This document shows positions 18,635 to 34,217 of a DNA stretch of 64,000 nucleotides, piece after piece; within the stretch, counting starts at the first letter, position 1, and each line of letters begins with the position of its first letter. The position numbers and the translations under genes are program-made. This stretch comes from a virus. A model generated the notes under the pieces. It saw only the letters and a program-made list of their open reading frames with translations, did no database searches and was not told the origin of the DNA. The DNA lies in IMG/VR virus record IMGVR_UViG_3300023179_000106, positions 1 through 64,000 of that record; one strand, given 5' to 3'.

Positions 18635-19057
18635 ATGGACTTCAGAGGAGCGCCTTACCCAATAACCAAGCACCCGCTCGGGCTTCTGAGGAGCCAGCGA
18701 GGGGTCGCGCAGGTCAAATCCGACCTGCTGAGCCTTCTCCTGACCGAGCCCGGGGAGCGGGTGATGCTCCCCACCTTCGGAACGCCCCTGAAGCAGTTCT
18801 TTTTCGAACAAAACGACTCTGTTATTGTCGAAAGGGTCAAGGATGCCATAGCCAACGCCATCAGGACTTGGGAGCCGAGGATCGCCGTCACGGCCATAGA
18901 GGTGACGAACTCCTCTTCGAACATGGAGTCGTCTTTCAGTCCCCTGGAGAACGGCGAGAGCACGGAACATGTGTTGATGATCAGGATACTGTTCACGGAC
19001 TTCGATGACATTCGTAGCGTCCAGGAACTCAAACTAGAAATTCCCCTAGGAGGTTGA
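18635..19057 (+). CDS. Baseplate wedge protein gp25-like
   Basis: A 140-residue protein of the GPW/gp25 family (lysozyme-like fold without activity), which nucleates sheath assembly on the baseplate. Family hallmarks seen are PITKHPLGLLRSQRGVAQVK, LLLTEPGERVMLPTFGTPL and IRTWEPRIAVTAIEV. The start ATG 18635 follows the upstream stop by two bases, and long upstream extensions in this frame are only an overlap with the spike gene. It ends just before the AGGAGG of the gp6-like gene. Confidence 0.92.
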   Translation: MDFRGAPYPITKHPLGLLRSQRGVAQVKSDLLSLLLTEPGERVMLPTFGTPLKQFFFEQNDSVIVERVKDAIANAIRTWEPRIAVTAIEVTNSSSNMESSFSPLENGESTEHVLMIRILFTDFDDIRSVQELKLEIPLGG

Positions 19058-19059
19058 CG

Positions 19060-20634
19060 ATGCCAGAGAATTGCCCGTTCGAAGTGACTCCGTTCGCCCG
19101 TTCGAATCCGATAAAGATCGACAAGATACTGAGCCTGAACTACACGAACCAGGACTTCTGGTCGCTGAAGACTAGGCTCGTCGAGTTCATCAGGGAGAGG
19201 TTCGGCGATCAGGGTAGCGTGCTTCCGAACACATTCAACGACTTGGTCGAGGGTTCAATAGCGATCATGCTGATGGAGAACTGGGCGTTCATCGGCGACA
19301 TGCTCTCGTTCAAGATGGACCAGATGGTGAACGAGCTCTTCATCGACACGGTCACGGAGCCGGACAACGCCTTCAGGCTCTGCCGTCTGGTGGGCTTCAA
19401 GCCCACCCCGCCGATACCTTCGACCTGCATGTGGACCGCGACGCTGAACTCCGTGCTCGACTCCGACATAGTCCTGAGCACGCCGATAACCGTGGAGACC
19501 GCGACCGAGGACGGCTTGCTAACCATTGAGCTGTTTGCGGCGGACGCGAGGGGACGTCCGATCTTCGGCCAGGAGATCGTGATCCCCGCCGGGTCTTTCT
19601 CCAACTCCGCGGTTGTGGGCGTTGAGGGCAAGACCTTCTTGGACAACTACACGGGAACGGGCCAGACACTCCAGAGTTACCCAACCACGAAGGACTCCGT
19701 GATATTCGAATCCGTAAATGTCAGGGTCGACGGGGTTCTGTGGGATCGGGTCGATTACTTCAGCGACTCCCAGCCGAGGAGGGAGTACAGGGTTGAGTTC
19801 GACTCCTCGTACAGGGCCTACATCATGTTCGGCAACAACAAGGCCGGGCTGAGCCCGCCCGCCGGCGCCCAGATACAGATCGAGGGCAGGCAGGGGGGCG
19901 GGGTAATAGGGAACATAGTCACCGGGTACGTGGAGACGCAGATTCAGGCCAGGGTGTTCGGAATCACCGGGGGCATACCCGTTTCGTTCCGCAACTACAC
20001 AAGAGGGGAGAACGGATACAACGGCGACACGGTCGAGGACATTCGCAGGAAGTTGCCGCTCTACCTCCGCACGCAGGACAGGGCCGTAACGGGCCTGGAC
20101 TACAAGACTCTCACCGACCAGTTCGTGACGCCGTACAACGGCCAGATAGGCAAGAGCACAGCCGTGCTTCGCAACCACGGGTGCGCCGGCAACGTAGTGG
20201 ACATATACATACTGGCCCGCGAGGGTTCGTCCGGGCTTACGAGGGCGAACGACAACCTCAAGATGGAGCTCGCCGAGATGCTGGAACTCAAGAAGATGGT
20301 GACGGACTATGTCTGTCTCAAGGACGGTGTGGTTCTGGAGGCCGACGTGTCCATCGAGGTTAAACTTTCCAGGATCAACAAGAAGTTCGAGCAGGAGATA
20401 ATGACGGACATAGAGAACAGGACCGAAGAGTTCTTCTCTCTGACGAACTGGGAATACGGGAAGGAACTCAGGGAGGGAGACCTAGTCAAGACACTGGCCG
20501 CCGTCAAGCAAGCTGAGGGCTTCGACATAGTCTTCACCACCGACGACGAGGGCAACTCAGGAAACATGGTCACCGCCAAGTTTTTCGAGATAATCAGGCC
20601 GGGCAGGGTCGACATATCTTTCATGTATCAGTGA
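19060..20634 (+). CDS. Baseplate wedge protein gp6 / baseplate J-like
   Basis: A 524-residue wedge protein that would dimerise to form the inner baseplate ring. Features of the baseplate J family are the N-terminal LNYTNQDFWSLKTRLVEF, the central YTRGENGYNGDTVEDIRRKLP and the following DRAVTGLDYKTL. ATG 19060 is chosen over TTG 19054 because a perfect AGGAGG lies 6 bases upstream of the ATG. It follows the gp25-like gene, exactly as in T4-like and P2-like tails, and its stop overlaps the GTG start of the next gene. Confidence 0.9.
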   Translation: MPENCPFEVTPFARSNPIKIDKILSLNYTNQDFWSLKTRLVEFIRERFGDQGSVLPNTFNDLVEGSIAIMLMENWAFIGDMLSFKMDQMVNELFIDTVTEPDNAFRLCRLVGFKPTPPIPSTCMWTATLNSVLDSDIVLSTPITVETATEDGLLTIELFAADARGRPIFGQEIVIPAGSFSNSAVVGVEGKTFLDNYTGTGQTLQSYPTTKDSVIFESVNVRVDGVLWDRVDYFSDSQPRREYRVEFDSSYRAYIMFGNNKAGLSPPAGAQIQIEGRQGGGVIGNIVTGYVETQIQARVFGITGGIPVSFRNYTRGENGYNGDTVEDIRRKLPLYLRTQDRAVTGLDYKTLTDQFVTPYNGQIGKSTAVLRNHGCAGNVVDIYILAREGSSGLTRANDNLKMELAEMLELKKMVTDYVCLKDGVVLEADVSIEVKLSRINKKFEQEIMTDIENRTEEFFSLTNWEYGKELREGDLVKTLAAVKQAEGFDIVFTTDDEGNSGNMVTAKFFEIIRPGRVDISFMYQ

Positions 20635-23600
20635 GGAAAATCTTGAAAACAGTAGGGGTCGACGGGGACATATCAGTTGAGGAGCCGATCAGGTTCGTCT
20701 TGGAGACCAAAGACGGGGACGACTGCCTGATCAATCCGTACCGCATAGACTCCGTGACCGTATATTTCGTGTCGAGGGAATTCACGGACGTCACCGCCAA
20801 CTCCTACCAGATGGTAGTCGAGAACGAAAGGGCGGTGCGAGAGTACGAGGAGGCAAGGGACGTCCTGTGCTCTAAGAAGAAGGACCCCGTGGGGGCCGCC
20901 ACCACCTCGGAAATAACGCTGTCCGGCCTGCAGACCGTCGACGGCATAGCTCTTGACGAGGGCGCGAGGGTGCTCGTCAAAGACCAGGCGGACGCGACGC
21001 AGAACGGCATATACATCGCGTCGTCCTCGGCGTGGAAACGGTCGGACGACGCGAGGTCTTTCATGCCCAAGTCGTATGTCTTCGTGGAGGAGGGGATAGC
21101 GAATATCGGGAGCGGATGGTACTTGGAGTCGGGTCGGACGGTAGTGGTGGGCTCCACCCCTTTGACGTTCGTTCGGTTCTCTGACAACGGCGATCCCGCC
21201 TCGCCTGACGCCTACTCGGAGACCCGCGTCGCACAGCTCAAGAAGATCAAGTCCGACTCGGCGTCGAAAAGCGACTTCTACTACAAGGACGCGGCGGTCG
21301 TAAAGACTTTCGGAGGGGTGCAGGATCGGCAGACGGGGGAGCTCTTCCCAGCGTGGCTCAACCCAGACATGGTGTCATCCGAACTACGCGACAAGGTGGC
21401 CGGAGACAACATACTGACGAGAGTCTACGAGGGGGACGAGCCCGCCACAGGAAAATTTGAACTCGTGTGGGATCCGTCCGGTTGTCGAGAAGGCGACTAT
21501 TTCGTGTGTTGGTCCTGGCGTCCGACCCTTTCGGGCGAGACGATGTCCGCCCACCTCTATTTCTCGCTGGGCGGGGGCGTCGGGCTGACGTCCAGTATTC
21601 CCACGCACAGAACGGACCCCAAAAAATACAACATGTTGATGGCGAGGTACCTGCCCGACATGTTCGAGAACTTCATATCGGAAAACGACCTGAGCCCTTT
21701 GGTTCTCAAGGGGCTGAACGAATCGGTGGCGGCCGGCTTCACGATGATCGAGAACTTGGCCAACCAGATAATAGACCTTTTGGACTCCAACGCCACGCAC
21801 GAGCAGCTTCTGCCGCTTCTGTCGAACATGTTCGCCCTGAAGGTCAAGTCTTCCGACTCGACCCTGTGGCGTCGCCAGATAAAGAAGGCAATACCAAACT
21901 TCAAGAAGAAGGGGACGATCGTGGGTCTGCGGGAGGCTTACGGCGACGCCGGCATGAAGCTGCTGAGGCTCGCAAGGCTATGGCAGGTGGTCTCGGAGTA
22001 CACGCACCAGGAAAGCTTCACCTACGAAGACTCCAACACATTCCCGCTTTCCAAGGCGATGATCCTTCCGGTGGACTCTAATTTCGAATTGTGGTTTCGC
22101 CCCGCGGAAGGACAGTGGCAGGATGTGACCTCGAGCCACGGCGTGCTGGCGGGCTTCGACGGCTCCAATCTTGTGTGGAACGGGACCATTTCCAAGGGCG
22201 ACTCGGTGCGCGTACTGTACAAGACCAAGGAGATACCCTCGTCCAGGCAGGCGCTGGAGGACTACATCCGTGGGATGCCGCTCATGGACAACCGGGACGA
22301 AAGAGGCCAGCAGTACCCGCCGAAGAACTGGAACGTGCGGGTCGTGGAGGAGGACGATCCTATGTTCGGCGTCCTAGTGCCCGTGCGTCACCCCCTCGCA
22401 GATCCCGTGGTCTGGGGCAGGGTTCGCACGGAGTTCCCCTACAGCGAGAACGCCTACAACATGGACGAGTACAACGGCTCCAAGAGGGACAGCCTTGATC
22501 CTTGCGACATCGACAAGGACTTCGTCGATTCGTGCGGAAGTTGCCAGGCGAGCGTTTTCAACATCGACTTGGAGGTGGAGGGCCTATCCGACGCAGGCTT
22601 CGCGGAGGCCATGCAGGTGGCGGAGGAGAACATGCCGTTTCACTCCATGGTGCACACTTACAACCTGAGCGGCTCTCGCACGGAGTTCGTGGGGCCTCTG
22701 GAGGAGCGCATAGAGACTTTGGTCACCGTGTCGGGCGGGGAGACGCTCATAGCCGGCGAGGCGCAGCACATTTTCAATAGGAGTGTGGACGCCAGCCAGG
22801 TCGACGACGTGAGAAGGGACATACTCGCGAGTTTTGAGGCCGTCGAGGCTCCCGGCGGAGGCACCACATGGGGAGGAGTCCTGCGGAACAGCAGGGTTTG
22901 CCTATTCCCGTCGTCCCTCAATTCGGAGTCTGACCTCAACGAGCCCGACACGGCGGGACTGTCGCAAGGCTTCGGACAGTACAACATAGACACAAGTTCG
23001 CCCGACGAAGACCCGTTTGAGAGTGGAAACCTCTTGGAGTTGTTGGGTTCCACCGCCAGATACCACACTCTGTCTTCGATAGACCTGTCTGCGGCCGAGA
23101 TATACGGCGAGGTCGACCCATCCACCGTCGGCCCTTTGTTCGAATACCGCATATCCAACAAGGTCGCCGACATCACCGTCGACATCGTCCAATCGGACCG
23201 CGTCGTGTTTTCGGACGAGGACGCAGATTTCTATCTGGTCGGCATCGTGTCACAAAAGGACGTGGACGACGAGGTCGCCCCCGGGCCGGCGTGGACACTG
23301 AGGTTCGAGTCTTCCGAGTACAAGGTTCTCGACCTGCTTCCCGACGGGACGCTTCTGTTGGAGGAGGCAGGGGCCGTGCCTTCCTTGTCCGGTTGGCAGC
23401 TGTGGGCCGTCGGCGAACAAGTCGCCAGCGGGCCGGGAGGCTCAAAGGCCGTCAAGAAGATGGGGCTCGTCGAGGTGGTTTCGGCATTGGGCGTCGGGGC
23501 TCGATCCCTGATCCGACTTGGCGACTACCTGTACATCGGGTGGGGGTCGACGCCTTCAAGGCACAAAGTGAGATCATACAAGGCGGGCGAGGAACTCTTC

Positions 23601-24164
23601 TACATAGAGGACTACGAGGGGGGCGGCGCCGGGGGCGTGGATGCGAAGGTCTACCGCAGGGTGATAGAGTCGCGGGTGGGGCAGGTCGGGTACGACGGTT
23701 TGGTCCTGGACTCTGATGCGGATCTGGAGTCGGAACTGCCCATTTCCAACGGGCTGTCGGCGAATGTAAACGAGGTCAATTCGGACTTCTTGCGAGAGAA
23801 CTACCTCATTTTTATAGGGTCGGAATACTACACTATTCTGCATGTCGACGGCTCCAGCGCCATCCTAGGGGGGCGGCTGGACTCCTACACCAAGGACGGG
23901 CAGGAGGTTGATTTCACCGTCTACAGGTTCTCGAAGCAGGGTCTTACTTTGCGCGAGCGGGTCGAGCCCCGCGTGCCTTCGTTCGACTTCGACTTCGTCG
24001 ACAGGTCCGGGAAGGCATTGATAAAGAGCACGCAGGCTGTGGGCGGGATGAGTGTCCTTTCCTCAAGGTTGAACTCCGCCAACAGCGGACAGCCATTCGA
24101 TACGGCAGCGCAAGACGAGCAAATAGAGTTCACGGTGGAATACAGAGACGGAGAAGAAACATGA
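20631..24164 (+). CDS. Large baseplate/tail protein with gpI-like domain
   Basis: An 1177-residue protein starting at GTG 20631 (GTGA overlap). Residues 105-185 contain ARVLVKDQADATQNGIYIAS and a following Trp-rich turn, the small domain common in tail fibres and tail spikes. Residues 340-470 resemble the P2 gpI tail-protein family (RYLPDMFENFISENDLSPL, then IPNFKKKGTIVGLREAYGDAG). The rest is beta-rich. It probably occupies the gp7-like outer wedge position and links wedge to fibres. No enzymatic motif is seen. The stop overlaps the next ATG. Confidence 0.8.
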   Translation: MRKILKTVGVDGDISVEEPIRFVLETKDGDDCLINPYRIDSVTVYFVSREFTDVTANSYQMVVENERAVREYEEARDVLCSKKKDPVGAATTSEITLSGLQTVDGIALDEGARVLVKDQADATQNGIYIASSSAWKRSDDARSFMPKSYVFVEEGIANIGSGWYLESGRTVVVGSTPLTFVRFSDNGDPASPDAYSETRVAQLKKIKSDSASKSDFYYKDAAVVKTFGGVQDRQTGELFPAWLNPDMVSSELRDKVAGDNILTRVYEGDEPATGKFELVWDPSGCREGDYFVCWSWRPTLSGETMSAHLYFSLGGGVGLTSSIPTHRTDPKKYNMLMARYLPDMFENFISENDLSPLVLKGLNESVAAGFTMIENLANQIIDLLDSNATHEQLLPLLSNMFALKVKSSDSTLWRRQIKKAIPNFKKKGTIVGLREAYGDAGMKLLRLARLWQVVSEYTHQESFTYEDSNTFPLSKAMILPVDSNFELWFRPAEGQWQDVTSSHGVLAGFDGSNLVWNGTISKGDSVRVLYKTKEIPSSRQALEDYIRGMPLMDNRDERGQQYPPKNWNVRVVEEDDPMFGVLVPVRHPLADPVVWGRVRTEFPYSENAYNMDEYNGSKRDSLDPCDIDKDFVDSCGSCQASVFNIDLEVEGLSDAGFAEAMQVAEENMPFHSMVHTYNLSGSRTEFVGPLEERIETLVTVSGGETLIAGEAQHIFNRSVDASQVDDVRRDILASFEAVEAPGGGTTWGGVLRNSRVCLFPSSLNSESDLNEPDTAGLSQGFGQYNIDTSSPDEDPFESGNLLELLGSTARYHTLSSIDLSAAEIYGEVDPSTVGPLFEYRISNKVADITVDIVQSDRVVFSDEDADFYLVGIVSQKDVDDEVAPGPAWTLRFESSEYKVLDLLPDGTLLLEEAGAVPSLSGWQLWAVGEQVASGPGGSKAVKKMGLVEVVSALGVGARSLIRLGDYLYIGWGSTPSRHKVRSYKAGEELFYIEDYEGGGAGGVDAKVYRRVIESRVGQVGYDGLVLDSDADLESELPISNGLSANVNEVNSDFLRENYLIFIGSEYYTILHVDGSSAILGGRLDSYTKDGQEVDFTVYRFSKQGLTLRERVEPRVPSFDFDFVDRSGKALIKSTQAVGGMSVLSSRLNSANSGQPFDTAAQDEQIEFTVEYRDGEET

Positions 24165-24652
24165 AAGACGCGATGGGCTGCAGGGGAGACATCCAGATGA
24201 TCGTGGAGAGAAGGGGGAGCGTCGAGGTCGTCGAGTTTCGGAACGCGATACTGCGGACGGGTCGGGAGGCTTTGGCGTTGTCTTTGGCGAACAGGCTGGG
24301 CGGCGACTTCGACTTCTTCGTGAGCAGAATGCTGTTCGGCGACGGAGGGGCGATCGGAGGTTCTCCCAAGGCCGTAAACACGGAGCGGACGGCCCTGTAC
24401 GGGACGACTCGAGTGTGCAAGCCCGTCGTGGCCAACATCGACCCGAACAACGGCTCGCAGGTAACCTTCACTTCCGTGGTGTCCTACGACGAGGGCAACG
24501 GATTCGACATAAACGAGATGGCCCTCCAGCTCCACGGAAGCGTGCCACCTGGCGGAACGAGCCCCAGCCTGTACAGCATGGCCACATTCCCCGGAATATC
24601 AAAGACCTCGCTCATGCAGCTCACCTTCAACTGGCGCATCAGTTTCATCTAG
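24161..24652 (+). CDS. Hypothetical baseplate-region protein
   Basis: A 163-residue soluble protein with FRNAILRTGREALALSLANR near residue 28 and beta-rich C-terminal half ending LTFNWRISFI. It resembles small virion proteins encoded after wedge genes in T4-like phages, but I cannot name a family. The start overlaps the upstream stop (ATGA), so the gene is coupled to the large gpI-like gene. A structural role is inferred from the operon. Confidence 0.75.
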   Translation: MKDAMGCRGDIQMIVERRGSVEVVEFRNAILRTGREALALSLANRLGGDFDFFVSRMLFGDGGAIGGSPKAVNTERTALYGTTRVCKPVVANIDPNNGSQVTFTSVVSYDEGNGFDINEMALQLHGSVPPGGTSPSLYSMATFPGISKTSLMQLTFNWRISFI

Positions 24653-24659
24653 GAGTGCC

Positions 24660-24908
24660 ATGGCGAGGGACATCGAGTTTCGATCCGAATCCGGCAGGAT
24701 ATTGATAGACGGCGAGCCCTTCGACTGGGGGCTTGACGACGAAGCCATCGAAGAGGCCAACAGGCACGCCGGCACGCCTCGCTTCATGAAGGCGATACAC
24801 AACGACATCATGGGTCACTTCCTTGACTCGTTGTCCGAGGTCTTGGGCTTCAGGCCGTCAATGAAGCAGGTAAACGAGGGTCTAGACAGGGGCTTCATAT
24901 CTAAATGA
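24660..24908 (+). CDS. Small hypothetical protein
   Basis: An 82-residue acidic protein with an AGGAG ribosome-binding site close to the ATG. It appears helical and has no cysteines or membrane segments. It overlaps the SET-domain gene by ATGA, so the two may be co-translated. No family recognised. Confidence 0.7.
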   Translation: MARDIEFRSESGRILIDGEPFDWGLDDEAIEEANRHAGTPRFMKAIHNDIMGHFLDSLSEVLGFRPSMKQVNEGLDRGFISK

Positions 24909-25435
24909 TACTCATCGATGAGAACGACGACAGGTTCTACATAGCGAGGTCGACACAGCCGGAGGCCGGCAGGGGGCTGTTCGCGTCGCGCGATATCGAG
25001 GAAGGCGACTGCCTAGAGGTCAAAGGGGTGATGGTGGACAAGGGTTCGCCTGCCGACTCCTGCACCGCCTACGCCGACGCCTTCAAGTTCGCGGCTGACT
25101 ACGCAGGCGTCTACACCCGCCACATAATACCGATGGGCTACGCGGGCATCGTCAACCACGCCAACAACAAGGAAGAGCAGAACGTAGAGATCAGGCACAT
25201 CATGCGCGGAGGCAAGAAGGTCTGTGTGTACCAGTTCGTCAAGCCCGTCGCCGCGGGACAGGAAATCCTCGGGGACTACGGCGACGATTGGAGGGGGCTT
25301 GACGGGTGGAGCAGGAAGGTGAACGAGGCCTCAGACGAGTCGGAGGAGAGGGAGTGGGCCTCTTTTATAGGGCGCGGTCTATATAACCTGGACAGGCTCA
25401 GCAGGCCGAGGGGGGACGATGCCACAGATCAATAA
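24905..25435 (+). CDS. SET-domain protein (putative protein lysine methyltransferase)
   Basis: A 176-residue protein with the SET-domain motif order: GRGLFASRDIEEGDCLEV near residue 22, IVNHANN near 83 (the N-H catalytic/SAM-binding block) and FVKPVAAGQEILGDYGDDW near 110-122 (the E-L-x-x-D-Y block). SET domains transfer a methyl group from S-adenosylmethionine to lysine side chains. The pre- and post-SET cysteine clusters are absent, as in many bacterial and viral examples. It lies inside a structural operon, overlapping the genes on both sides, so the target may be a virion protein or a host factor. The substrate is unknown. Confidence 0.82.
   Translation: MILIDENDDRFYIARSTQPEAGRGLFASRDIEEGDCLEVKGVMVDKGSPADSCTAYADAFKFAADYAGVYTRHIIPMGYAGIVNHANNKEEQNVEIRHIMRGGKKVCVYQFVKPVAAGQEILGDYGDDWRGLDGWSRKVNEASDESEEREWASFIGRGLYNLDRLSRPRGDDATDQ
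25379..25388 (+). promoter_or_regulatory. CTATATAACC late-promoter-like element within the SET gene
   Basis: CTATATAACC lies 30 bases upstream of the ATG at 25419, inside the 3' end of the SET gene. It could start an adhesin-region transcript. A second AT-rich site (TTTTATAGGG) occurs 15 bases further upstream. Confidence 0.35.
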
Positions 25436-26279
25436 CATTCCGCAGGTGCTCTACGAGCCGAACCAGCCGTACCACTATCACTACGACAACCTGCCCCTCC
25501 GCAACATCCTCGCGAGGATCGGGCTGGTCAACATACAGGTCGACACGAACACGGACATGTTGCGCGGGGCGGCTGGCGACGCCGGTTCGCTGAACGCCCG
25601 ATTGGCCGAGGCTCTGGAGTCGGACGGCTCAATCAAAACCTCCGCAGTCGATTCGGCTCTTCATGGGATAGGGCACCATTCGGACGGGCCCGGGCCCGAC
25701 GGCGTAGAGTACGTAAGGATGAAGGAGGCGGAAAGGGCCAAGCTCTTATCCGTGGAGAGTTCCGCCAACAAGCTGACTATTTCCGTGGAGGACGATTTTC
25801 CCACCATCGGCGACACGGTCGAAATACTCAACGGAACAGTTAGCCTGCGGGGCTCTTCCAGCATATTCTTCGACTTCGAGGCTCCCAACATCGTTCGGGC
25901 ACACTCTGCGTTCCCGCCGGATACCGCCCATCGGCACCATTACGGTCGTGAGCCAGTATTGTTGGCCAATTCTTCGTCTTCGTCGTCCAGCTTGTCTAAC
26001 TATGCGACGACTTCGGTCTCCACGCCCTACGCGGAGGGGACTCTGCGCGTTTATGTGAACGGCGTGCGTCTCTCGAACTCTTCTGTGCCCGTGCCCAACA
26101 GCGACGGGAGTTCATTCGCCGCCACGCACGTCGTATCGGAGGAGCCTTCCGAAGGCCACTTCTCCTTGAACAGGCCGCTCGACGAGTCGGAAGTCATAAG
26201 GATAGATTTTGACGAGAAGTTTGTTGCCTCGTCATCTTCATCTTCAAGTTCATCTTCATCGTCGAGTTCATCTTCCTAA
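25419..26279 (+). CDS. Virion-type protein with poly-serine C-terminal tail
   Basis: A 286-residue protein. The N-terminus contains YEPNQPYHYHYDNLPLRNI, which looks like a virion attachment region. The middle is mixed alpha/beta, with a run of serines near residue 187. The protein ends in an almost pure serine tail of about 16 residues. The tail is encoded by varied Ser codons (TCA, TCT, TCG, AGT), so selection for serine rather than simple slippage is suggested. It starts inside the SET gene. It probably belongs to the fibre or head-decoration set and may be a glycosylation substrate, which is speculation. Confidence 0.75.
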   Translation: MPQINNIPQVLYEPNQPYHYHYDNLPLRNILARIGLVNIQVDTNTDMLRGAAGDAGSLNARLAEALESDGSIKTSAVDSALHGIGHHSDGPGPDGVEYVRMKEAERAKLLSVESSANKLTISVEDDFPTIGDTVEILNGTVSLRGSSSIFFDFEAPNIVRAHSAFPPDTAHRHHYGREPVLLANSSSSSSSLSNYATTSVSTPYAEGTLRVYVNGVRLSNSSVPVPNSDGSSFAATHVVSEEPSEGHFSLNRPLDESEVIRIDFDEKFVASSSSSSSSSSSSSSSS

Positions 26280-26288
26280 AAGGGGAAC

Positions 26289-26858
26289 ATGCAGTCCTGC
26301 GCCGATTTTTCATCTTCGCTCGGGTTCGTGATACTGTCGCCGGAGCCCAACATAGCGAGGCTGAGGGACACGGTGCGGTCTATTGGCTACCTTTTCGGTG
26401 ACGCGACCCCGATTGTTTGCTCAGTCGCCAAGGGGGCCGGAAAGTCCAGGATCGAAGAGATGAAGGGCGTGTGCTCGGTCGTCGAGGGCGGATCAACCAT
26501 AATGTCCCTGATAAACCGCGGCATGAAGGGGTGCAAGGGCGAGGGCTGGAGGATGCTGGTGATGGAGGGCGCCAGAATCCCGCGCGGAATAGAGAAGAGA
26601 TACAGCCGCTGGATACGCGGCGAGAAGGACGTCCTGTTCCCGATAACGGTCAGCCAAGACCGTGAGGGCCGGCCCCTGAAGATCATGGCCAACTTCGAGG
26701 AGTGCACACTCAACGGAATAGCGATGCACACAAGTCTGTTCAAAGAGGTCGGGGAGTTCTCGGACAACCCTATCGCCGTATCCAAGAGCTTCTGGGCGGT
26801 CGGGGCGCTTCAGAGCGGCGCGACTTTCAAGGCGGTGCTTGGGGTGAAGGTCATCTAG
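26289..26858 (+). CDS. Glycosyltransferase-like hypothetical protein
   Basis: A 189-residue protein. Its pattern, alternating strands and helices, a GWRMLVMEGARIPRGIEKRY segment and then NGIAMHTSLFKEVGEF, recalls GT-A glycosyltransferases, in which a central acidic site is followed by a substrate-binding G.....F..VG.F loop. The canonical D-x-D is absent, so an enzyme call is weak. It sits between the serine-tailed protein and the fibre genes and ends convergent with the 2-deoxyribosyltransferase-like gene, overlapping it by four bases. Confidence 0.65.
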   Translation: MQSCADFSSSLGFVILSPEPNIARLRDTVRSIGYLFGDATPIVCSVAKGAGKSRIEEMKGVCSVVEGGSTIMSLINRGMKGCKGEGWRMLVMEGARIPRGIEKRYSRWIRGEKDVLFPITVSQDREGRPLKIMANFEECTLNGIAMHTSLFKEVGEFSDNPIAVSKSFWAVGALQSGATFKAVLGVKVI

Positions 26859-27391
26859 ACCGAAAAAAAGTACCACCTCGACTTGAGGTCGACTTGGTCG
26901 GACGAGTCGACCTCCTTGAGATAGTTCATTATCTCTCCCCAGCTTGAGAAGATCATCTCGTGAGGTATGGTACCAAACAGCCAGTCGGGGGCCTGGTTCT
27001 TGCCCTGCTCGACGTGCACCAGTATGGGCTTCTTCTGACGATTCGCCCAGAATATCTCCTCGAGCGTGCCGCAGGGATGCGTGTTTATGTCCAGATTGAC
27101 GACTAGGAAGTCGCTTATGTCGACTAGCCTGAGGTCGGTGGCTCTGATCACCTTCATCATAGCCGACAGCTCGTCATAGCGCTCGGACGCCTTGAGCGAG
27201 GCCTTTGTCTCGTGGGTGGAATCGTCCTCCGCGCCGACTTCAGTGGGCTTATTGAGGGGGTTGAAGACGACCACGCCCATGTCCTTGAGAAAAGGCGTGA
27301 TGTCCGAACGCCACCCCGCCCCCCTGTCCGGAACCCTGTCTATGGCTCCCGCGAGGTACGCCCTCTGGTTCTTGAGTCTGTTCAAGGCCAA
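26855..27391 (-). CDS. Nucleoside 2-deoxyribosyltransferase-like protein
   Basis: A 178-residue protein with the Rossmann-like layout of nucleoside 2-deoxyribosyltransferases and related phage proteins: RAYLAGAIDRVPDRGAGWR near residue 10, VVFNPLNKP near 40, and RLVDISDFLVVNLDINTHP with GTLEEIFWANRQKKPILVHV near 92-125. Such enzymes exchange or cleave the base of deoxynucleosides. The TTG start at 27391 is preferred because a strong AAGGAGGG lies four bases upstream. This is the only minus-strand gene between 4.2 and 35.3 kb. Confidence 0.8.
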   Translation of the reverse strand: MALNRLKNQRAYLAGAIDRVPDRGAGWRSDITPFLKDMGVVVFNPLNKPTEVGAEDDSTHETKASLKASERYDELSAMMKVIRATDLRLVDISDFLVVNLDINTHPCGTLEEIFWANRQKKPILVHVEQGKNQAPDWLFGTIPHEMIFSSWGEIMNYLKEVDSSDQVDLKSRWYFFSV

Positions 27392-29074: not shown

Positions 29075-31350
29075 CCATTCCTACGGCGAGTCTGTTTCCG
29101 GACGAGTACGACAGCGACCTCAACCTGTTCCTGGTTAGGGACTCCCTTCGAGTTCGACTTCTCAACGACTACGAGCCCGGCGATGCGAGCGTGATAGTCG
29201 AGGACTACCCCGAGATGATGGACAGGTTCCCTCCGACGGGGATCATCACCCTCACAGAACAATGCAGCGACATAGACCTGCGGGCGTTGAGCTTCCACTA
29301 CTCTTCCAAGACATCCACGAGCTTCGACGGCCTGGAGATACTTCCCGAGTTCGCCGCTCTGGACTCCGTGAAGCCGAAGAAGGCGACGAATGTGACCATG
29401 AACGTAGTGGCCATGCACCACAACCACCTCAAGGACTCGCTGGTGGCCATACAGGGCAACTTGGGGACAAAGTACACAACCGACAGGGAGACCATAACCG
29501 GCAGGATAAAATATCTGGAGGGCCTGGCATTCCGTCCGAAGGCGTGGTTCTCCGCCAGCACGCCGATAGGACTCGCCCCGCTTTCGGTCACCTTCAAGAA
29601 CGAGAGCTTCAGGCTCGGCCCGTCGGCCGTGACGCACACATGGGACTTTGGGGAAGGAAATCCGGTGACCTTCCAGACGGCGAACCAAAGCGAGTACGAG
29701 AGCTACGAGGGCGTCATAGACGGTGTGCAGATAAAGGGATCGACCCTCACGAAGGTCTATTCCACCCCGGGCATTTACACCGTGTCGCTTATCATGAGCA
29801 ACGAGTGGGGCGATAGCGAGGTCGCATTCGAGGACATGATAACGGTCAAGACAGAGTGTCCCGAGGAGGCCTCGATAGTCATAAACGCTAGGTCGACGCA
29901 AACATACACGGACGGCGATCCCGCGCTCGGCACGCGCCCGAAGATACGATCCGTGGCGAACAGCTTCGTGGACTTCGAGGTTCCGTACGGAAACGACCCC
30001 TCCAGAAGCGGATTCTCCTACGCGGGGGAACTCTTGGAGCTGACGAGCAGCTCGAGCATGTTCGGAAGCCCAGTCGACCCTATCGTGGAATACACATGGA
30101 GCCTCGGCGATGACCTGCCCCATTCGAATTCGGCGTCCGCTCGAGCCTCTTACGGAATAGGAGGGATATACGACATAGTGCTCCGCGTCGACACGAGCTT
30201 TGGGTCGTATCGCATAACGAAGTACGAAGGCTCTGTCGACATAGTCGAATCAAGGAACCTCTGGCTTTTCAAGTTCGATTCAGAAGGCTACAGCGGAGCG
30301 GTTAAGGCATACGAGTTCGGGCTCGACAGCGAGACTTTCAAGCTCCTCGGAAACCAGACCATATCAATAGACAGGAACAGAGAGTTCCTGGACGTGTATG
30401 TAGGGGCGGCATACGACTCGTCCACGCGGTCGCGGGCGAGGAGCGAGTTCGAAAGGAACACCGAATTTGTGCCGTACGGAAGCCTCAGCTCCGGCCTGCG
30501 GGGCAATTCAATGTTGTTCTGGGCGAAGGGTGGATCTTCGCAGGATTCGGCGCAGATCGGAGTGGCAAAATACAATGCCTTCGACGATCAGTATGAGTCG
30601 TTCAGTTCCATATCAGGAAGGCCGTGGAACTGGGTGGCTCTGAACTCTCCGGACAAGACTTACTTCCTTTTCGGAAGTGCGAACCAGTCCCTGCCGAACA
30701 CCAACGCGTCGACGGCCTTGCGGACGGACTACGACCTTCCGAGCCATTCGGTGACATCGTCGTCGGCTCTGGACTCGTCGTCGTTCGGCAACGGCGCGGA
30801 CGAGCTTCTTGAGCATCCGTCATACTTCGAGAACGGTGTGCCGACCAATGGGTATTTCGCGACGTACAGGTCTGCATGGAAGGATTCGGTGGGATACATA
30901 CTGCGCAACTCGGCGGTGAACGAGTTCTTCCGCATCTCCAGTTTCTACAAGACCGTCGGAAGCGTATCCACGCCATTCAGCACAATCACGAAGTTGATCG
31001 ACATGACTGGCACGGCCAAGACCGAGGGTCGACTCGTAACAATGTCGAACGGCATATTCTTCTTTGGCAACTCCGGCGAGGTGAGCGCCTGGAACGACAC
31101 CACGATGACATGGGAGGTCGGACGCACGGGGTCTGCGTCGCTGACCTTCAGGTCGGTACAGGACACCGCGGCCTCCGGGTTCGACGAACGTTCGAATACG
31201 CTTCTTGCCTCTTCGGACGGGGATCGGGTCGCGTACCTGAGTTATGACTACAGCAACAAGGCGTTCGTGAAGTTCAACGGCACGGACTTGACGTTCTCGA
31301 TGCTGAAACAGCGCCCCGCCGGCTCTCAATTCAACATGGGGGTGTACTGA
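29071..31350 (+). CDS. PKD-domain virion protein, paralogue 2 (large)
   Basis: A 759-residue protein with the same N-terminal layout as its neighbours (DSDLNLFLVRDSLRVRLL, then HHNHLKDSLVAIQGNLG near 125), a PKD domain around residues 170-265 (THTWDFGEGNPV, VYSTPGIYTVSLIMSN) and another PKD-like unit near 325-385 (EYTWSLGDDLPHS). The C-terminal half (400-759) has repeated beta segments with short aromatic motifs, which may be a beta-propeller or receptor-binding head. It overlaps the genes on both sides by one or four bases. Confidence 0.82.
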   Translation: MTIPTASLFPDEYDSDLNLFLVRDSLRVRLLNDYEPGDASVIVEDYPEMMDRFPPTGIITLTEQCSDIDLRALSFHYSSKTSTSFDGLEILPEFAALDSVKPKKATNVTMNVVAMHHNHLKDSLVAIQGNLGTKYTTDRETITGRIKYLEGLAFRPKAWFSASTPIGLAPLSVTFKNESFRLGPSAVTHTWDFGEGNPVTFQTANQSEYESYEGVIDGVQIKGSTLTKVYSTPGIYTVSLIMSNEWGDSEVAFEDMITVKTECPEEASIVINARSTQTYTDGDPALGTRPKIRSVANSFVDFEVPYGNDPSRSGFSYAGELLELTSSSSMFGSPVDPIVEYTWSLGDDLPHSNSASARASYGIGGIYDIVLRVDTSFGSYRITKYEGSVDIVESRNLWLFKFDSEGYSGAVKAYEFGLDSETFKLLGNQTISIDRNREFLDVYVGAAYDSSTRSRARSEFERNTEFVPYGSLSSGLRGNSMLFWAKGGSSQDSAQIGVAKYNAFDDQYESFSSISGRPWNWVALNSPDKTYFLFGSANQSLPNTNASTALRTDYDLPSHSVTSSSALDSSSFGNGADELLEHPSYFENGVPTNGYFATYRSAWKDSVGYILRNSAVNEFFRISSFYKTVGSVSTPFSTITKLIDMTGTAKTEGRLVTMSNGIFFFGNSGEVSAWNDTTMTWEVGRTGSASLTFRSVQDTAASGFDERSNTLLASSDGDRVAYLSYDYSNKAFVKFNGTDLTFSMLKQRPAGSQFNMGVY

Positions 31351-34217
31351 TGGCTGTCGGATATCCCCCGAGACCAGCGTTCCCTATTTCCCTAGATTCC
31401 GATCGCACCCTGTATTTGGTCTACAACACGAGTGAGGCCAAGACCACTTCCGAAAACGCTCCGTGGCAAGAGGAGATCGAAATAGTTCCGGTCGGCCCCG
31501 GCGACCTAGAGATATGGGCGGACAACGGGTTTGCCAACATATCTGGAGAGTTGTTCTACTACGACTCCGTGGACAAAGACGAGAACGGCAAGGTGTTCAG
31601 GCTCAAGCGTTGCGCCAGAAACCTAGGGGGGAAGCAGACCAGGTTCAACCCTTCGGGCACGTGGGTTCGCGGCTTTGTCATAGCCGAACACCACAATCAG
31701 TTGGTGGACGCCACGATAGCCACCCAAGCGTACATATTCGACCTTGAGGAAGACCTTTCGGCGTTGGAGGAGGAGACCCCATGCCTCGACGACTCTCCAT
31801 GCGTCGACGCACAGATCGAAACCGAAGTGGTAGACCCTAACCCGCCGAATTGTGCAGGAACGGTGGTCAGCTATTCGGTGACGATCAACGGAACATTCAA
31901 CAATTTTGTGTTGGACTTCGGAGACGGCCAGTCGACCACTTCTAGCCTTTCTGGCCTGCACACTTACAGTCCGGGGGCAAACATAGATCCCGTCCTAACC
32001 GTGTTCAGCGATTCTTGCACGGTAGTCCAGACCCCTCGAGAACGAGACAGGGACGAAGTTCCAGATTCCCCTGCGCCAGACGAGCCCACCCTTACTGTTC
32101 CGGAACTGTGTCTTTTTCCGACTATCAACATACCGACGCTGGAGGTGCCCTCGACGACTGTGGAGGTGCCCCCCATCGTGTTCCCCTGTCTCAATCTGGC
32201 GCCTAGCCTGAATCTGCCGAGCATAATCAGCATAATCCCGCCAGAGATATCGATTGTTCCGTTCAGCTTTACGCCCATAACCATAAGTTTCGGCCCGGCT
32301 CCATTCATATCGCCAAGTTTCACCTTCGGACCGGCTCCGACCATACCGCCGGTGTCGTTCACCTTCGGTCCCGCTCCGGTGGTAACGCCGGCCTCCTTCA
32401 TTTTTGGGCCGATGTCGTTCACTTTCGGTCCGGCTCCGACCATACCTCCGGTGTCGTTCACGTTCGGGCCTGCTCCAAACATACCGCCGGTGTCGTTCAA
32501 CTTCGGCCCCGCTCCGCTGATACCGCCGGTGTCGTTCAACTTCGGCCCGGCTCCGACCATCCCTCCGGTGTCGTTCAACTTTGGCCCGGCTCCGACCATC
32601 CCTCCGGTGTCGTTCAACTTTGGCCCTGCTCCGCTGATACCGCCCGTTTCTTTCAACTTCGGTCCGGCCCCGAAAGTCGAACCCGTGCAGTTCACATTCG
32701 GCGCTGCTCCGAAGGTCCAGCCTGTCGAGTTCACATTCGGCGCTGCTCCGAAGGTCGAACCTGTGTCGTTCAACTTCGGCCCGGCTCCGAAGATATCGCC
32801 TGTGTCGTTCAGTTTCGGCCCGGCTCCGAAGATATCGCCTGTGTCGTTCAGTTTCGGCCCGGCTCCGAAGATAACGCCTGTGTCGTTCAGTTTCGGCCCT
32901 GCTCCGAAGATATCGCCCGTGTCGTTCAGTTTCGGCCATGCTCCGAAGATATCGCCCGTGTCGTTCACATTCGGCCCTGCCCCCGTGGTGTCGGCGACTT
33001 CGTTCACATTCGGCCCTGCCCCCGTGGTGTCGGCGACTTCGTTCAGTTTCGGCCCTGCTCCGAAGATATCGCCCGTGTCGTTCAGTTTCGGCCATGCTCC
33101 GAAGATATCTCCCGTGTCGTTCACATTCGGCCCTGCCCCCGTGGTGTCGGCGACTTCGTTCACATTCGGCCCTGCCCCGAACGTACAGAGTTCCTTCGAA
33201 TGGGGACAGCCGCCGAAGATAGATGGCTCTTTCACATTCGGCACGGCGCCCAAGGTGGGAGGATCGTTCACATGGGGGTCTCCGCCGAAGGCAGGAGGGT
33301 CGTTCACATGGGGTACGGCCCCCAAGGTGGGAGGGTCGTTCACATGGGGGTCGCCACCGAAGATAGACGGATCCTTCACATGGGGTCAGCCGCCTCAAAT
33401 TGGAGGTTCGTTCACTTGGGGCGAGCCACCCCAGGTCGGGGGTTCGTTCACATGGGGCGATCCTCCCGCGATACAGACATCCATAGATTGGGGCGAGCCT
33501 CCTGCGATTCAGGCGTCGATTGACTGGGGAAATCCCCCGAAAATACAAATCGACTGGAGCGACCAGCCAACCATTTCCTGCGTAGTTTCCGTCGAATGCC
33601 CCTCAGGAGGATCCGGGAGTTCTGGGCAGCCGTTCAGGAGGAACATGACTCTCGACGACAACTTCGTCGACGATTTCAATACCGACGACTTTGAGATAGA
33701 GATAGGCAATCTCGGTATACCTTCCGAAATCAAGGTCGTGGCTCCCAAGTTCCCGGACATAAAGGTCGTGCACGACATGCCCGAGTTCATAGAACTCAAG
33801 TCGGACATCCCGAGCAGGATCATAGTGTACCAGGCCGACGTGCTTCCCAAAGAAATAAAGATCGTGTCGGAGTCGATACCCGACACGATCGCCGTAGACG
33901 CCTCTTCTGTTCCGAAGTCTATAGTCATGGACGCCTCCGCCGTTCCTAGCTTCATAACGGTAGTGGCTCCGGACCTGCCGTCCGTCATAAAACTCGACGG
34001 CTCGGGAGTCCCCGATTCGATCAAGGTCTTCGGGATACCCGACTCCATAGAGGTTCGCATGCCCAGCGAGATAGTGGCCCGACTGGAGGTCCCAGAAAAC
34101 CTCGAGGTGCCACTCGTATACAGAGGAGACCCTGTGCCGGTGAGGTTTGACGCATCGGTGATATCCGAATCGGGCGAGCAAATGTGCTTCGCTTTGGTCC
34201 CTTGCGGCAAGAAATGA
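31350..34217 (+). CDS. PKD-domain virion protein, paralogue 3, with FG/WG-P tandem repeats
   Basis: A 955-residue protein. Residues 1-150 match the docking region of the two preceding paralogues (DSDRTLYLVYNTSE, GTWVRGFVIAEHHNQLVDAT). Residues 160-215 are PKD-like (LDFGDGQSTTSS, LHTYSPG). Residues 310-405 are Pro/Ile-rich, and from about residue 312 to 740 there are about 35 copies of a 13- or 12-residue unit of the form S-F-(T/N/S)-F-G-P-A-P-x-I-x-P-V. Residues 780-920 hold a different 9-12-residue repeat with a P.xI pattern. It is likely a long, stiff fibre. The ATG overlaps the upstream stop. Confidence 0.85.
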   Translation: MAVGYPPRPAFPISLDSDRTLYLVYNTSEAKTTSENAPWQEEIEIVPVGPGDLEIWADNGFANISGELFYYDSVDKDENGKVFRLKRCARNLGGKQTRFNPSGTWVRGFVIAEHHNQLVDATIATQAYIFDLEEDLSALEEETPCLDDSPCVDAQIETEVVDPNPPNCAGTVVSYSVTINGTFNNFVLDFGDGQSTTSSLSGLHTYSPGANIDPVLTVFSDSCTVVQTPRERDRDEVPDSPAPDEPTLTVPELCLFPTINIPTLEVPSTTVEVPPIVFPCLNLAPSLNLPSIISIIPPEISIVPFSFTPITISFGPAPFISPSFTFGPAPTIPPVSFTFGPAPVVTPASFIFGPMSFTFGPAPTIPPVSFTFGPAPNIPPVSFNFGPAPLIPPVSFNFGPAPTIPPVSFNFGPAPTIPPVSFNFGPAPLIPPVSFNFGPAPKVEPVQFTFGAAPKVQPVEFTFGAAPKVEPVSFNFGPAPKISPVSFSFGPAPKISPVSFSFGPAPKITPVSFSFGPAPKISPVSFSFGHAPKISPVSFTFGPAPVVSATSFTFGPAPVVSATSFSFGPAPKISPVSFSFGHAPKISPVSFTFGPAPVVSATSFTFGPAPNVQSSFEWGQPPKIDGSFTFGTAPKVGGSFTWGSPPKAGGSFTWGTAPKVGGSFTWGSPPKIDGSFTWGQPPQIGGSFTWGEPPQVGGSFTWGDPPAIQTSIDWGEPPAIQASIDWGNPPKIQIDWSDQPTISCVVSVECPSGGSGSSGQPFRRNMTLDDNFVDDFNTDDFEIEIGNLGIPSEIKVVAPKFPDIKVVHDMPEFIELKSDIPSRIIVYQADVLPKEIKIVSESIPDTIAVDASSVPKSIVMDASAVPSFITVVAPDLPSVIKLDGSGVPDSIKVFGIPDSIEVRMPSEIVARLEVPENLEVPLVYRGDPVPVRFDASVISESGEQMCFALVPCGKK
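32283..33560 (+). repeat. FG/WG-P tandem repeat array (39-bp then 36-bp units)
   Basis: About 24 units of 39 bp are followed from about 33192 by about 10 units of 36 bp. The 39-bp units encode SF-x-FGPAP-x-I/V-x-P-V. The 36-bp units encode SF-x-WG-x-PP-x-I-x-G-S. Three consecutive units near 32900-32990 recur almost exactly near 33040-33160, showing a 117-bp segmental duplication. One unit near 32400 is truncated to seven residues. Confidence 0.95.
33700..34110 (+). repeat. Degenerate Pro-x-x-Ile repeat region
   Basis: About a dozen 9-12-residue units of the form P-(D/S/K)-x-I-x-V, for example IPSEIKVVAPKF, FPDIKVV, IPDTIAVDASSV and VPSFITVVAPDL. The spacing and strand alternation suggest a second, different beta-solenoid after the FG array in the same protein. 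Confidence 0.8.

Follow-up and report, generated by a model that had tools for sequence, protein, structure and literature searches.

A phage SET-domain protein paired with a small upstream gene, with a C-terminal extension that changes together with that partner

SET-domain lysine methyltransferases are familiar chiefly from eukaryotic chromatin, and the substrates of known SET enzymes are lysines of proteins or peptides. A viral example is vSET (A612L) of the chlorella virus PBCV-1, an H3K27 methyltransferase which, like the protein considered here, is a small, virus-encoded SET protein. SET genes in phages are already known as well; what differs at the locus described here is a partner gene directly upstream, which we call PAR, a C-terminal extension of the SET protein, and a link between PAR relatives and homologues of L-lysine 6-transaminase (LAT). 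The Stenotrophomonas phages Mendera and Ps15 are tailed phages with an annotated SET protein, as here: that of Mendera is a minimal 103-aa protein with neither PAR nor extension, which lies among small genes with no assigned function, and that of Ps15 is reported as "SET domain protein (ORF62)" (PMC9025141). The cyanophages P-SSM7 and P-RSM6 encode short, 99-aa SETs annotated as hypothetical that keep the Asn-His pair and the Tyr found in our protein; LAT was found in neither record, and PAR was not found in P-SSM7, the one of the two in which it was searched for. In P-RSM6, an unrelated phage, the minimal SET gene (L104) stands directly before a gene noted as "similar to gp25", which is followed by a baseplate wedge gene. 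Minimal forms are also found in a 735-kb phage. For bacterial cells, SET proteins acting on host chromatin have been reported in a paper (PMC3980110) that contains none of the words phage, virus or viral. A paper on huge phages (PMC7162821) does not contain the terms SET domain, lysine, methyltransferase or aminotransferase, and the open-access literature searched holds no prior description of the PAR-SET arrangement, the extension or the LAT link, an absence that weighs little in open-access material alone.

The window we analysed is a 64,000-nucleotide stretch of a 65.7-kb viral record (IMG/VR IMGVR_UViG_3300023179_000106), in which a single open reading frame, at 24905-25435 on the plus strand, matches the SET family. 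A sequence-only reading had proposed a SET protein here from three motifs in SET order, and its coordinates and motif order both hold. The frame runs from an ATG at 24905 to a stop codon ending at 25435 and encodes a complete 176-aa protein, with a SET core of approximately residues 1-130 that contains GRGLFASRDI (residues 22-31, with G22-x-G24), VNHANN (83-88, with N84-H85) and EILGDYGD (120-127, with Tyr125). The Pfam SET model (PF00856) aligns along its whole length of 105 positions with residues 22-126 (E 2.3e-6), scoring 28.4 bits where the cut-off is 22.4. In the PDB, the top match by sequence is vSET (E 1.9e-5), and a family profile matches 4rz0 (PFL0690c) at E 9e-12. An AlphaFold2 model built from 55 relatives has a mean pLDDT of 82 and gives 364 Foldseek matches at E <= 0.001. 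Against SET and PR domains its VIA Z reaches 14.1, the value for PRDM9 (4c1q_A; rmsd 2.6 over 125 residues). PRDM9, SET7/9, MLL and EZH2 share the predicted fold at VIA Z 12-14 over 105-135 residues, and the cellular SET/PR-domain methyltransferases among the matches listed are 17-26% identical to the window protein.

The presumed catalytic positions are retained. In an alignment of 56 distinct relatives (53 viral, identical proteins collapsed), N84, H85, E120 and Y125 are invariant, and the GxG of the SAM site has G24 in 56/56 and G22 in more than 90%. The sequence-only reading had named loss of the catalytic Tyr as a result that would speak against it; Y125 is kept in all 56 proteins and aligns with Tyr105 of vSET, which we take to be the catalytic residue. 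The alignment with vSET covers residues 10-129 and brings the catalytic Tyr, the N-H pair and the YGDD motif into register. Unlike vSET, the window protein continues for about 45 residues in a C-terminal extension, is encoded beside a partner gene, and belongs to a tailed phage. The gene is under purifying selection (dN 0.19 and dS 0.93 against the relative at locus L011), and the family profile, the predicted fold and a dN far below dS together rule out a chance motif or pseudogene. A PHROG family with no function given, phrog_28741, matches 40 of the 56 family members. The window gene is thus confirmed as encoding a SET protein with a predicted SET fold and catalytic positions in place, and, judged from its sequence, that protein is likely to be an active protein-lysine methyltransferase.

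The nearest upstream gene, which the earlier reading did not mention, is the most informative neighbour. PAR (24660-24908, plus strand) encodes an 82-aa protein with an F-D-W motif at residues 21-23, and its stop codon overlaps the start codon of the SET gene in an ATGA at 24905-24908, an overlap that probably couples the translation of the two. PAR is also under purifying selection. Its model (pLDDT 86) consists of three short strands, three helices and a final strand, for which Foldseek returned no match below E 0.47 in PDB or BFVD and VIA Z was at most 2.5, an absence of matches that does not show the fold to be new. The window PAR matches no Pfam or PHROG family, and its relatives have only scattered weak matches, most often to phrog_5473 (5/51 members, best E 2.2e-4).

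The pair lies in a tail module. Upstream on the plus strand are genes for a baseplate wedge protein (19054-20634; phrog_219, E 2.2e-20), a large tail protein, c2, with a Tail_P2_I domain (20631-24164; PF09684, E 1.7e-5, over the cut-off), and a tail-collar-fibre-like protein, c3, directly 5' of PAR (24161-24652; phrog_5417, E 9.7e-10; Phage_tail_fib, E 7.7e-4, below the cut-off). Downstream, also on the plus strand, the start of c4 (25419-26279) overlaps the end of the SET gene; c4 is a conserved 3' neighbour, present in 38/56 distinct loci, and has no Pfam or PHROG match. The placement between baseplate and adhesin genes given by the sequence-only reading is therefore borne out on the baseplate side, while the adhesin finds no support. 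Co-transcription with tail genes, which that reading also proposed, fits this lineage (c2 is a neighbour in 43/56 and c3 in 42/56 distinct loci), although tail adjacency is not a constant feature of the family. Several other things in this region deserve mention in their own right. Residues 82-188 of c2, a shared module, match ten PHROG families, among them several with virion or tail fibre annotations. A gene resembling nucleoside 2-deoxyribosyltransferases (26855-27391, minus strand) lies on the opposite strand within the tail operon and is found in 34/56 distinct loci. A 955-aa protein (31350-34217, plus strand), in which PVSFNFGPAP-like repeats fill a long stretch, adjoins PKD-domain proteins.

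Across relatives, it is PAR and not tail adjacency that is the constant feature beside the SET gene. Viral contigs scanned with nothing but the SET alignment yielded 71 loci, 70 of which have PAR upstream by profile. When the SET scan was widened, these 71 came back among 79 loci, and 72 of the 79 have PAR (a partial match at L111 is counted as present), so PAR is not universal in the subfamily; the seven loci that do not have it (L069, L109, L110, L112, L113, L114 and L115) do not have the extension either. In 50 of 52 distinct pairs the two genes lie between -17 and +2 bases of each other, and 26 of the 52 share the same 4-base overlap, start codons having been chosen by script and overlaps counted by hand; 578 and 620 bases separate the genes at L076 and L077. 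At L077 (G007 108209-108461, minus strand) the match to the SET-side PAR is broken into two parts that lie in different frames, through either a frameshift or a faulty assembly. Among 50,697 phage records, the sole match to the window family is in LR756511, an uncultured 595-kb phage, and there too the pair is present. One scan covering genomes of bacteria and archaea found three loci in metagenome-assembled genomes (Chloroflexi and planctomycetes) with short SETs and no adjoining PAR. In two planctomycete genomes (L101 and L102), a SET gene of the same broad family lies directly 3' of a gene some 1,325 codons long.

PAR and SET are kept together in at least four neighbourhoods. For the 60 distinct SETs in our tree, the tail module holds 43 that have PAR (L033 and L089 were assigned to it although the script placed no c3 directly before PAR), three others with PAR have an AAA-ATPase/methyltransferase-like region on one side and a glycosyltransferase gene on the other, one (L063) is in another neighbourhood, and six with PAR are in huge phages near helicase and AspA/AstE-like genes. 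In LR756511 and the 341-kb contig G006, the tail module is continuous without PAR, SET or c4 and lies more than 150 kb from the pair in record coordinates. Because the pair occurs in other contexts and these huge-phage tail modules do without it, tail adjacency is a feature of a lineage and not a requirement. The earlier step from a tail neighbourhood to a virion target is weakened by the same facts, with at least three other neighbourhoods for the pair and two huge-phage tail modules free of SET. That an adjacent tail gene encodes the target is unsupported as a general rule, the pair being found in three other contexts. Lysines are invariant in c3 (K70 and K148, with K87 nearly so) and c4 (K108), and decide nothing about the target, since the PAR-less locus L069 keeps them too.

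The second feature that sets the window protein apart is its C-terminal helical extension, approximately residues 131-166 (25295-25402, plus strand), which is present in SETs with PAR and absent in those without. The model places helices at 127-141, 145-156 and 159-166 at low confidence (pLDDT about 56-67). SETs with PAR have some 30-51 residues after the catalytic Tyr and finish in a W..F....LYNL-like end; those without have 11-38 residues, and this end is missing. A regular expression for it finds 52 of 53 SETs with PAR and 0 of 7 without, the one exception being L067, whose tail, WATFSEKALYNF, was counted by eye as having the extension. On a tree of the 60 distinct SETs made from core columns only (L113 and L114 were left out, though not identical to L112), the PAR state changes four times: between bacteria and phages, at L069, at L109 with L112, and at L115, with L069 and L115 on long branches. 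The extension changes in the same way as PAR in 4/4 independent pairs, a number at which the lowest possible sign test p is 0.125, the value obtained, so that it cannot reach significance. A mirror-tree test gives no SET-PAR co-evolution signal beyond that with flanking genes, as the correlation of distances between SET and PAR (0.74-0.78) is no better than with the flanking genes (0.59-0.83). One 168-kb contig carries both forms, a SET with PAR and the extension, and a short SET with neither, which sits behind a dNMP-kinase-like gene.

PAR also has relatives elsewhere in these genomes. Searches of whole records found five further copies away from SET (in LR756511, G006, G007, G011 and G009), and four of the five, which we call PAR2, are directly 5' of a LAT homologue (LR756511, G006, G007 and G011; regions L119, L120, L122 and L123), the gene beside the G009 copy not being LAT. 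All of these lie outside the window. The enzyme they adjoin resembles L-lysine 6-transaminase (TIGR03251) at 447-514 bits, just under the equivalog cut-off of 520.8. LAT enzymes act on free lysine. Starting from LAT, 30 of 51 viral loci have a PAR-family frame upstream; starting from PAR2, 20 of 34 loci have LAT. The remaining 14 PAR2 loci, many in the same gene order, do not have LAT, so the PAR family must also have a role without lysine enzymes. For distinct LATs, 25/44 have PAR upstream, mostly within a few bases and in some cases with one small gene between, and the PAR label changes three times on the LAT tree. Two PAR copies are found in seven of 38 records (G006, G007, G011, G012, LR756511, G024 and G025), one copy in 24 and none in seven, and in each of the seven two-copy records SET adjoins one copy and LAT the other (in G012 about 330 bases lie between LAT and its copy). 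G024 and G025 were chosen by LAT alone, and their SETs were found with the Pfam model. The window record, itself a fragment, has one PAR and no LAT match. The 30 distinct PAR2 proteins all end exactly in Gly-Trp/Tyr-Ile at the C-terminus (for example L120:5009-5269), and the ends of SET-linked PARs are variable. LysW-type amino-group carrier proteins, a type considered for PAR, end in an EDWG(E) tail, which does not fit these endings.

We propose that the window SET protein is a SAM-dependent protein-lysine methyltransferase of the small, vSET-like type, working as one part of a two-component enzyme. PAR, made just before SET from the overlapping gene upstream, would dock on the helical extension, and we infer that this extension is where it binds; PAR would then direct SET to a lysine of a target protein, or activate SET on it. 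That PAR is a targeting or activating subunit seems to us somewhat more probable than the contrary. In the window phage, the target would perhaps be a virion protein of the tail or baseplate, which is favoured because the pair is made from a tail operon and PAR paralogues lie among other conserved phage genes; the distance of the pair from tail genes in huge phages weakens this step. Taken whole, with SAM binding, methyl transfer, contact between PAR and SET, and a target that is most likely a virion protein, we give this proposal about an even chance.

The two proteins may instead not work together: SET would act alone, and PAR would be an independent, merely co-transcribed gene, the pair being carried as a linked cassette. 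The 14 PAR2 loci without LAT speak for this, since the function of PAR there needs no lysine enzyme, as do the mirror-tree result and the 7/60 distinct SETs that have no PAR and yet keep Tyr125. A cassette would not readily account for a pair that survives several changes of neighbourhood, for the extension that changes with PAR in 4/4 cases, or for second PAR copies that adjoin SET or LAT in 7/7 two-copy records, and we consider independence rather unlikely. It is also unlikely that SET, with a tail location that is incidental, methylates a host protein (nucleoid, ribosomal or envelope) during take-over. In huge phages the pair adjoins helicase and AspA/AstE-like genes and is remote from the tail module, a position that would suit such a function, and the report on bacterial SETs and host chromatin (PMC3980110) offers a precedent, but at 43 of the 60 distinct loci the pair stays in a late tail operon, which is a poor site for a take-over gene.

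PAR might itself be the substrate or carrier, with SET methylating and LAT transaminating a lysine on, or attached to, its own PAR. PAR-family genes do precede two different enzymes of the lysine epsilon-amine, and the 30/30 Gly-Trp/Tyr-Ile endings look as though a free C-terminus matters. However, the best conserved lysine column in SET-linked PARs has lysine in 26/52 and no column is conserved throughout, the PARs of L011 and L017 having two lysines each, which makes PAR unlikely as a substrate; LAT enzymes use the free amino acid, and PAR2 occurs without LAT. We regard this arrangement as quite improbable.

Four PAR-less loci join a SET gene and LAT in another way. In L153, L155, L157 and L165 (4/51 LAT loci), a 121-aa SET gene lies between aldehyde dehydrogenase and DDAH-like genes and directly before LAT. 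The two of these short SETs tested against the Pfam SET model, from L155 and L165, match at E 3e-6 and 2.4e-6. All four short SETs are distant from the window family, whose profile finds three of the four at E 2e-4 to 8e-4 and does not find that of L165. Independent cases are few, because the matches at L155 and L157 coincide in both position and score. These operons also hold a sugar-nucleotide-dehydrogenase-like gene and resemble lysine catabolism in a phage. The idea that SET and LAT serve lysine or methyl-amino-acid metabolism, with SET modifying free or peptide lysine and not a signalling target, draws on these operons and on the saccharopine-dehydrogenase-like gene 3' of LAT in L165, but is most improbable for the window family given the distance of the short SETs, the protein and peptide substrates of known SET enzymes, and the five other SET-bearing phage records in which no LAT was found by a search run without a positive control.

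The dedicated partner gene is a handle on what phage SET enzymes do, as the pair can be co-expressed and PAR used as bait for the target. The occurrence of PAR relatives beside two enzymes of the lysine epsilon-amine suggests a role for PAR proteins in delivering substrates that carry lysine. A bolder version, which we offer as speculation and think doubtful, is that PAR is a new family of small phage adaptors that programs lysine-side-chain enzymes, its paralogues handing targets either to a SET methyltransferase or to an enzyme of the lysine 6-transaminase type. If that were true, large phages would use a common targeting module to mark or convert the epsilon-amines of lysines on selected proteins, the product being methyl-lysine in the SET case and an aldehyde in the transaminase case. 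Were the link between PAR and LAT functional, it would amount to a phage system that rewrites the side chains of lysines, and would give an origin for the control of a SET enzyme by an accessory protein outside eukaryotes.
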